From positions 1 to 44,388 of the forward strand of contig JAFQFD010000043.1 of NCBI GenBank assembly GCA_017415715.1: 44,388 nucleotides of DNA, in the 5' to 3' direction. The translations under genes and the position numbers were made by a program. Below the pieces are notes generated by a model. That model saw nothing but the letters and a program-made list of their open reading frames with translations. It did not search any database and was not told where the DNA came from. Source of the DNA: Bacteroidales bacterium. GTDB taxonomy: Bacteria > Bacteroidota > Bacteroidia > Bacteroidales > UBA932. Numbering within the stretch: the stretch's first letter is position 1; every line of letters starts with the position of its first letter. Positions 2,646 to 3,554 of the stretch are shown here, one piece after another.

Positions 2646-3554
2646 ATGGAAGTTAGAGCTAAGAAGGCCCTTGGCCAGCACTTTTTGACAGATCTGTCCA
2701 TAGCGCAGAGGATCGCCGATGCCCTCATCCTGCCTTACCCAAAGGCATCATCAGATGCCGCGACCGACAAGGTCGCCGGTCTGAGCAAATGCGAAGACCG
2801 CATGCCCCACCGGGGCTGTCACGAAGTGACTGGGGGTGAAAAACTTCCAACACCTGTGTTGGAAGTAGGCCCGGGCATGGGAGTTCTCACACAATACCTC
2901 CTGCAGAGACCGGAGGTTGACCTGCGAATGGTAGAGATTGATACTGAGTCAGTTGACTACCTTCTTGTGCATTTCCCTCAGGTCAACGGCAAGCTCATAG
3001 AGGCAGACTTCCTGAAGTTGAAGCTCGAGAGCTTCTTCGCCGACAGGTTCTGCGTCATAGGCAACTTCCCGTATAACATCTCGTCTCAGATATTCTTCAA
3101 GATCCTGGACTACAAGGAGCAGGTGCCGCAGGTGGTCTGCATGATCCAGAAAGAGGTCGCAGAGCGCATAGCCGAGAAGCCCGGCACCAAGACATACGGC
3201 ATACTTTCGGTGCTCCTCCAGGCATGGTATGACATCGAATACCTCTTCACTGTGGGCGAGGGCGCATTCAACCCTCCGCCAAAGGTCAAGTCGGCGGTCA
3301 TCAGGCTCGTCCGCAATTCACGCACTGAACTCGGCTGCGACGAAGCACTCTTCAAGACGGTCGTGAAGACCGGCTTCAACCAGCGCCGCAAGACTCTTCG
3401 CAATTCCTTGAAGCCGCTCATCCGCGCCAAGGCGGACCGCTGCGGCTGGACAGAAGAGCAGATCGCCGAGTTCATAGCCGACCCTGTCTTCGAACTCCGC
3501 CCGGAACGCCTCAGCGTCGAGGACTTCATAGCCCTGACACTGAAGCTGGCATAA
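2646..3554 (+). CDS. rsmA: 16S rRNA (adenine1518/1519-N6) dimethyltransferase with a hairpin-rich in-frame insert
   Basis: RsmA/KsgA dimethylates two adjacent adenines near the 3' end of 16S rRNA using S-adenosylmethionine. The family start ([22 protein letters not shown]), SAM motif I ([15 protein letters not shown], ~residues 71-85), acidic motif (VEIDTES), catalytic motif IV ([10 protein letters not shown], ~residues 138-147) and the C-terminal helical domain are all intact. At 302 residues it is about 35-40 longer than usual. The excess is confined to residues ~31-69, between the first helix and motif I, a loop that is normally only a few residues. The DNA there (2737-2856) is a string of perfect hairpins and looks like an extragenic repeat inserted in frame. 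Reading frame and catalytic residues are preserved, so the enzyme is probably active. Confidence 0.95.
2744..2866 (+). repeat. Cluster of six hairpins inside rsmA (probable inserted REP-like element)
   Basis: Six successive perfect inverted repeats: GGCATC/GATGCC (2744-2759), GCGACC/GGTCGC (2760-2776), ATGCG/CGCAT (2789-2803), GCCCC/GGGGC (2804-2816), GTCAC/GTGAC (2818-2830), and an 11-bp stem with a 2-nt loop, ACTTCCAACAC/GTGTTGGAAGT (2843-2866). The block coincides with the extra ~39 residues of RsmA and stays open in the coding frame. Confidence 0.75.

Follow-up and report, generated by a model that had tools for sequence, protein, structure and literature searches.

A dispersed five-hairpin element in frame in the RsmA loop of a Bacteroidales genome

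How did six perfect inverted repeats come to lie in a row within rsmA in a Bacteroidales genome that probably belongs to the genus Candidatus Cryptobacteroides? The window analysed here, a stretch of 44,388 nucleotides, contains this gene as a reading frame that is uninterrupted across the hairpin cluster, and its product scores 244.5 bits against the NCBIfam equivalog TIGR00755 (cut-off 171). The six repeats reported in the initial annotation are real. They do not overlap, extend from 2744 to 2866 between the N-terminal helix and SAM motif I, and give a hairpin load (arm base pairs summed) of 39 in the best 130-bp segment, the mean being 7. The second-highest load in the window is 26, at an unrelated place (28201), and when the whole window was shuffled 20 times with its dinucleotide composition kept, every maximum (20-28) fell short of 39. 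We consider it very probable that a mobile element of five hairpins sits in frame in the RsmA loop and that the sixth hairpin arose with the insertion, most likely by a fold-back step. The features on which this reading draws are collected in Table 1.

Table 1. Features of the rsmA locus (window positions) and related copies at other loci
Feature	Location	Strand	Detail or evidence
rsmA (ksgA), 302 aa, 16S rRNA adenine dimethyltransferase with insert	2646..3554	+	TIGR00755 above cut-off
Five-hairpin mobile element (our label, type B), in frame, approximately residues 34-65	2745..2838	+	Covariance model
Hairpin A	2744..2759	+	GGCATC ATCA GATGCC, 6 bp arms
Hairpin B	2760..2776	+	GCGACC GACAA GGTCGC, 6 bp arms
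Hairpin C	2777..2800	+	CGGTCT..AGACCG, 6 bp arms
Hairpin D	2804..2816	+	GCCCC ACC GGGGC, 5 bp arms
Hairpin E	2818..2830	+	GTCAC GAA GTGAC, 5 bp arms, then TGGGGGT
Sixth hairpin	2843..2866	+	ACTTCCAACAC-CT-GTGTTGGAAGT, 11 bp arms, loop 2
Sixth hairpin, new arm	2843..2853	+	Reverse complement of host codons directly downstream
Sixth hairpin, host half GTGTTGGAAGT	2856..2866	+	In VLEVG codons; alignment to relatives
Third-subtype tandem arrays (L039-L041)	G000:C45:15123-15268, C21:95129-95271, C34:38991-39221		Units 85, 84, 98 bp
M20 peptidase insert	L273 (window's genome); same in L272 (G090)		
aroE (shikimate dehydrogenase) inserts	L263, L416 (G361, G211)		
murB insert	L285 (G323)		
queH inserts	L334 (G026) = L454 (G090); L321, L438, L440 (G361, G323, G266)		
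rsmE insert	L435 (G143)		
ispG insert	L446 (G082)	antisense	ORF open to contig end

The insert in RsmA and its element family

Among the PDB alignments listed, three match query residues 6 to 26/27 and resume from 69/70, which confirms the proposed position of the insert between helix 1 and SAM motif I. The insert is found in one of 30 RsmA loci, the best-scoring from 370 genomes with a match; this is the window itself, and the 29 other near loci are without it. The nearest RsmA (from G400, 99% identity over 208 residues) has the loop ..VPCPGVDTVYNAENPMPALEVGPG, and by comparison about 39 residues in the window replace about 14. The first account of the insert is corrected in that some 14 loop residues were apparently replaced. 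This loop is also not conserved in length, as had been supposed: from GQHFLxD to GPGxG it measures 24-83 aa in the 17 relatives that were parsed, 12 of the 30 loci having resisted parsing in this survey, and some relatives have loops that are long but unrelated in sequence. The RsmA loop between helix 1 and SAM motif I is, to judge from these comparisons, tolerant of length change, and the insert is probably neutral for the enzyme. It is in-frame coding sequence and is lineage-specific among the relatives examined.

A nucleotide search of the window's genome with positions 2735-2868 returned, besides the query itself, seven matches at E<1e-4, each covering 25-33 nt of the core; the wider kinship of this segment became visible with a covariance model. 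This model, built from 13 longer aligned copies of which none is from the window's genome, matches the window along the full length of the model with 72.8 bits (E 1.8e-13), and no second match up to E 10 is seen there. Compared with most full-length copies elsewhere, which score 88-126 bits, the copy in rsmA is diverged; it measures 94 nt, where other copies mostly measure 121-146 nt. The consensus of the 13 copies comprises six helices forming five hairpins. In most of them the loop of hairpin A is ATCA or TTCA; hairpin B, which is shorter in rsmA, has an inner stem in the aligned copies, and the stem of hairpin E is GTCGC/GCGAC in other copies. The model ends at 2838, so that five of the six hairpins initially taken as the element belong to it; the 11-bp hairpin at 2843-2866 lies outside the element as the model defines it and, on the alignment to relatives, is half host sequence.

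The proposed pairing is supported by several measures. Paired cells amount to 96.5%; shuffles give 81.6%, and with slid partners the share is 32-46%. The covariation score reaches 0.436 versus 0.153, and 14 of 29 pairs show compensatory change on both sides (shuffled mean 10.6; reached by 5 of 500 shuffles). Further pair types were not above the shuffles (23 versus 21.9, a value reached by 177 of 500). The element may function as an RNA or in the form of single-stranded DNA, the covariation being compatible with either. A cmscan of 14 loci with Rfam 15 found no family matching the element at its gathering score; the rows that overlap it (ilvB-OMG, E 0.07; proV, E 1; BSR0709, E 0.083) are far under the gathering scores. 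No earlier description of the type-B family came up in searches of an open-access collection of papers or in Rfam.

When up to three mismatches are allowed, the window's genome has eight occurrences of the core GGGGCTGTCACnnnGTGACTGGGG, spread over four loci. The three loci other than rsmA read as intergenic and consist of tandem arrays (third subtype), each with two or three units; a short variable hairpin precedes the core in these arrays. The covariance model gives 10 places in this genome at E<=1, the best matches being in contigs C8 (115 bits, within a peptidase gene) and C41 (102 bits). With the same core at three intergenic-reading loci, kin at C8 and C41 and no insert in the close relatives examined, the suggestion in the initial annotation that a mobile palindrome of extragenic type entered the gene in frame, in a tolerant loop, is borne out. 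Of the two observations that the annotation named as speaking against it, namely the same residues in all close relatives at low DNA similarity and the lack of a second copy in the genome, neither was made. In the genus the core, with up to two mismatches, is present in 27 of 200 genomes and a reversed control pattern in one, and the covariance model detects the element in at least 164 of 400 genomes at E<=1e-4, with no more than eight candidates scored per genome under strict filters. An order-wide draw of 295 genomes, including one other member of the genus, contained the window's own genome as its sole match. The five-hairpin element is widespread in Candidatus Cryptobacteroides, with much of it between genes, and the Bacteroidales carrier records listed are metagenome-assembled genomes. 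It is apparently non-autonomous and mobile. In a search for an autonomous element between the two copies of L444, only ORFs of 78-170 aa were encountered. Plasmid and phage collections searched with one copy gave no match.

Sequences related to the element were also observed in other settings. A cousin family, which we label type A, has hairpins D and E in common with type B and a different 5' half, GGAGCAGG..CCTGCGACAG..CGCCCC TTAACAA GGGGC (L078-L114); counted together, the cores of types A and B number 29 in G102, 20 in G163 and 9 in G099. The core in the form CCCC..GGGGCTGTCRCnnnGYGACTGGGG occurs in other repeat contexts (L118, L131, L136, L141, L130, L146, L166, L197 and L226), in records titled Faecalibacterium, Clostridiales, Oscillospiraceae, Synergistaceae, Rhodothermia, Salinibacteraceae and Rhodocyclaceae and in one viral contig. 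Copies in L115 (497-617), L116 and L279 (G083) are located just before a tmRNA-like 3' end (GGGGGTTCGACTCCCTCTGCTCCCACCA), and positions 611-673 of L115 give a cmscan tmRNA match below threshold. The copies in L063 and L066 adjoin tRNA 3' ends, and in L063 a terminator arm, GGTACAAAGAAAGGG, is seen by eye as a direct repeat on both sides of the copy.

In-frame copies and an inverted host sequence at the 3' junction

The ORF context was examined for 118 copies, 75 in a first set and 43 in a second, all of them high-scoring matches and thus a non-random sample. The first set represents 75 of 87 matches, after removal by hand of tandem partners, duplicates and fragments; 40 of these copies are in no ORF of at least 90 aa, 7 are partly within one and 28 are inside one, and a Pfam scan covered ten of the 28. 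Fourteen of the 118 copies lie within ORFs of recognised families (the window, L263, L272, L273, L285, L321, L334, L416, L435, L438, L440, L442, L446 and L454), where L272 and L454, unscanned, are near-identical to L273 and L334 respectively. When near-identical pairs are counted once and L442 is excluded, these merge into 11 in-frame cases in seven gene families, namely rsmA, rsmE, aroE, murB, queH, ispG and the M20 peptidase, each assigned by Pfam or NCBIfam. They represent 7 to 11 independent events, because common ancestry is possible among the four cases in queH and between the two in aroE. L442 (iron-sulphur protein) was left out because it may join two genes; it is a doubtful twelfth case, with an inverted repeat 51 nt from the element. 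Long ORFs over the element in L261, L265 and L310 had no Pfam match and were excluded from the count, as was L278 (acyl transferase), whose true start may lie downstream of the element. The element is in the sense orientation in 10 of the 11 coding cases, ispG being the antisense one, and L321, L438 and L440 have apparent remnants of a second unit upstream. For reference, the ordinary queH loop has 32-33 residues in 15 relatives, and the M20 loop, measured up to GRG(S/T/A)CDAKG, comprises about 21 residues in seven parsed relatives. The insert in rsmA belongs to a pattern seen across the genus in several housekeeping genes. Other in-frame repeat-like peptides (CHSERSEESPSI, VIPGLTGNLP and CHFERSGSGDEKSL) are observed in the M20 loops of L342 and L344 and in the MurB of L285, and perhaps represent other palindromic repeat families.

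In all 11 of the 11 in-gene cases the 3' end of the element is marked by an inverted repeat with the host side. The arms measure 8-22 nt, some with mismatches, and the loops 2-8 nt. The scores are 7.5-19, and in each case 0-6 of 300 shuffles score as high; for the 5' flanks the scores are 3.5-7.5. The weakest junctions are those of queH in G026, whose score of 7.5 equals both the best ordinary queH loop and the best 5' flank, and of the M20 peptidase, where 6 of 300 shuffles match the arm. That the right arm is of host origin was checked for rsmA, M20 and queH by aligning the sequences or comparing the loops, and is read from position only for aroE, murB, rsmE and ispG. Inverted repeats at the same site in 42 other RsmA loci score no higher than 8 (11 in the window), the best of them having unrelated letters, and 15 queH loops of ordinary length score at most 7.5, none of them repeating the host WW codons. 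Five longer queH loops (L358, L361, L363, L376 and L383) contain an inverted copy of the host WW codons (scores 8.5-15, arms 11-16 nt) and have no confident type-B match, L383 alone among them being listed, at E 0.075. It is possible that these loops are scars or harbour other elements. The longer queH loops L359, L360, L371, L379 and L382 are without an inverted host copy. Over all contexts, hairpins of at least 8 bp are present in 37 of 71 3' flanks versus 3 of 71 5' flanks (approximately 1% in shuffles), in a set restricted to copies that have 80 nt of flank on either side and differ from one another in the 3' flank. The corresponding figures for the second set are 18 of 43 and 3 of 43; ordinary terminators may contribute in part to the intergenic 3' counts.

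A possible mode of insertion and its alternatives

We propose that the element entered rsmA in sense and in frame, replacing about 14 loop residues and leaving the family signature intact. The stretch that joins its 3' end to the gene is the reverse complement of the host codons next to it. The form of the junctions suggests that a host strand 3' end at the insertion point would snap back with a short loop (2-8 nt), that the folded-back end would copy 8-22 nt of itself, and that synthesis would then switch template to the element, as DNA or RNA, before rejoining the left flank. Insertions would survive where the loop of a gene tolerates them in frame. Host replication or repair, or another enzyme, may provide the machinery, since neither Y1 transposases nor reverse transcriptases track the element. 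Whether these cases constitute a new insertion class, in which a structured hairpin element enters by fold-back and each time leaves an inverted copy of target codons at its 3' junction, is a more tentative matter, to which we give slightly less than an even chance. If this were the case, in-gene palindromes and scars that outlive the element (e.g. the queH loops L358 and L376) would be a footprint of fold-back, and fold-back insertions would supply housekeeping enzymes throughout the genus with new loops.

Several other origins can be weighed against this proposal. A retro-element, in which a five-hairpin RNA is copied by a reverse transcriptase into a nicked target after the target 3' end snaps back, would account for the RNA-like covariation, for the sense orientation of 10 of 11 coding cases and for the inverted host copy, which fits a self-primed 3' end. 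However, the reverse transcriptase family PF00078 is found in 8 of 21 element-bearing genomes versus 12 of 20 without a listed type-B match, these sets being hand-picked, and the sense bias may merely reflect open frames, as copies not counted as coding have open sense frames in 113 of 225 cases versus open antisense frames in 63 of 225. We regard this origin as unlikely. Still less likely is a REP-type element whose hairpins are recognised as single-stranded DNA and moved by a Y1/HUH transposase (TnpAREP/RAYT), despite the short hairpins, the many and largely extragenic copies, and a GCGAG..GAAGC pattern in hairpin B of most aligned copies. We take this pattern to resemble CGTC-type REPs. According to PMC3733652, Bacteroidetes have CGTC repeats, and two of the Rickettsia palindromic elements (RPEs), RPE-4/6, belong to this type. 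When a GTAG/GTGG or CGTC tag was sought in the type-B copies, the 3' tails varied (GGGGGTAGAC, GGGGGTTAAG, GGGGGTGGAC and others), and hairpin B was seen often to contain GCGTCAGCGAG.

The distribution of the Y1 family (PF01797) argues against such a transposase. It is unmatched in G199 (eight type-B matches, 93% complete) and G130 (five matches, 95% complete), which for type B alone are the cleanest carriers without Y1, as well as in G083, G099, G136 and G214 and in G163 (20 core copies, mostly of type A; 99% complete). PF01797 occurs in 40 of 60 genomes, both with and without the element, in a hand-picked set of draft genomes chosen by the core pattern, in which a gene may be missed and several supposed negatives carry type-B copies by the covariance model. 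Moreover, we know of no instance in which Y1 transposition produces inverted host copies. The term REP-like used at first does not extend, on these results, to a strict REP, for which a tracking Y1 partner would be expected. It is very unlikely that the element targets pre-existing hairpins such as terminators, the sixth hairpin having already been in the gene: many intergenic copies do adjoin terminator-like hairpins or tRNA 3' ends when inspected by eye, but the palindrome is absent from the 42 other rsmA loci and the 15 ordinary queH loops, and there is a strong difference between 3' and 5' flanks. An RsmA extension that is old or grew slowly, hairpin-rich by chance, could be accommodated by the variable loop length and the unrelated long loops of some relatives, but is extremely improbable, given that its residues are unique to the window's genome among the 30 RsmA loci and that, at the E-value given above, the full model of a structured element found across the genus fits the DNA.

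To our knowledge, no mechanism is known for the spread of protein-coding palindromes such as RPEs. The type-B family provides many insertions with close empty sites in named housekeeping genes and with a common junction signature, and the inverted host copy at this junction points to a concrete, testable mechanism. Such elements add segments to the loops of RsmA, RsmE, MurB, AroE, QueH and IspG in a gut Bacteroidales genus.

Comparison with known repeat systems

The structured mobile RNAs of Rfam 15 include covarying multi-hairpin units that spread, as type B does, although none matches it above threshold in the 14 loci scanned. MITEs are likewise non-autonomous, short and multicopy, and some in-frame fusions of MITEs are mentioned in PMC10969869; in contrast, no terminal inverted repeats or fixed target duplication were noticed by eye in the flanks of the 87 type-B matches. 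REP/BIME sequences with TnpAREP (RAYT), of the GTAG and CGTC super-families, are small many-copy hairpin repeats as well, and are largely extragenic, with some REPs located within ORFs, according to PMC3733652 and PMC6006769. The type-B element differs from these in being longer (94-146 nt, five hairpins), in having no tracking Y1 transposase and in its inverted host copy.

In behaviour the element resembles the RPEs, which are described in PMC3767692 and PMC10969869 as palindromic repeats, some of them in frame within genes and in solvent-exposed parts of proteins. RPEs and Wolbachia palindromic elements are short (about 100-150 bp) palindromic repeats like type B, which is itself a many-copy palindromic repeat, also intergenic, with in-frame gene insertions. 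The likeness is one of description, and type B belongs to a different phylum, has five separate covarying hairpins and shows at its 3' junction an inverted host copy that goes unmentioned for RPEs in the passages cited here. Because host and anatomy differ, we class the type-B element as one that works like the RPEs and not as a member of them. The presence of in-gene elements in a gut Bacteroidales genus indicates that protein-coding palindromes are not peculiar to intracellular Rickettsiales.
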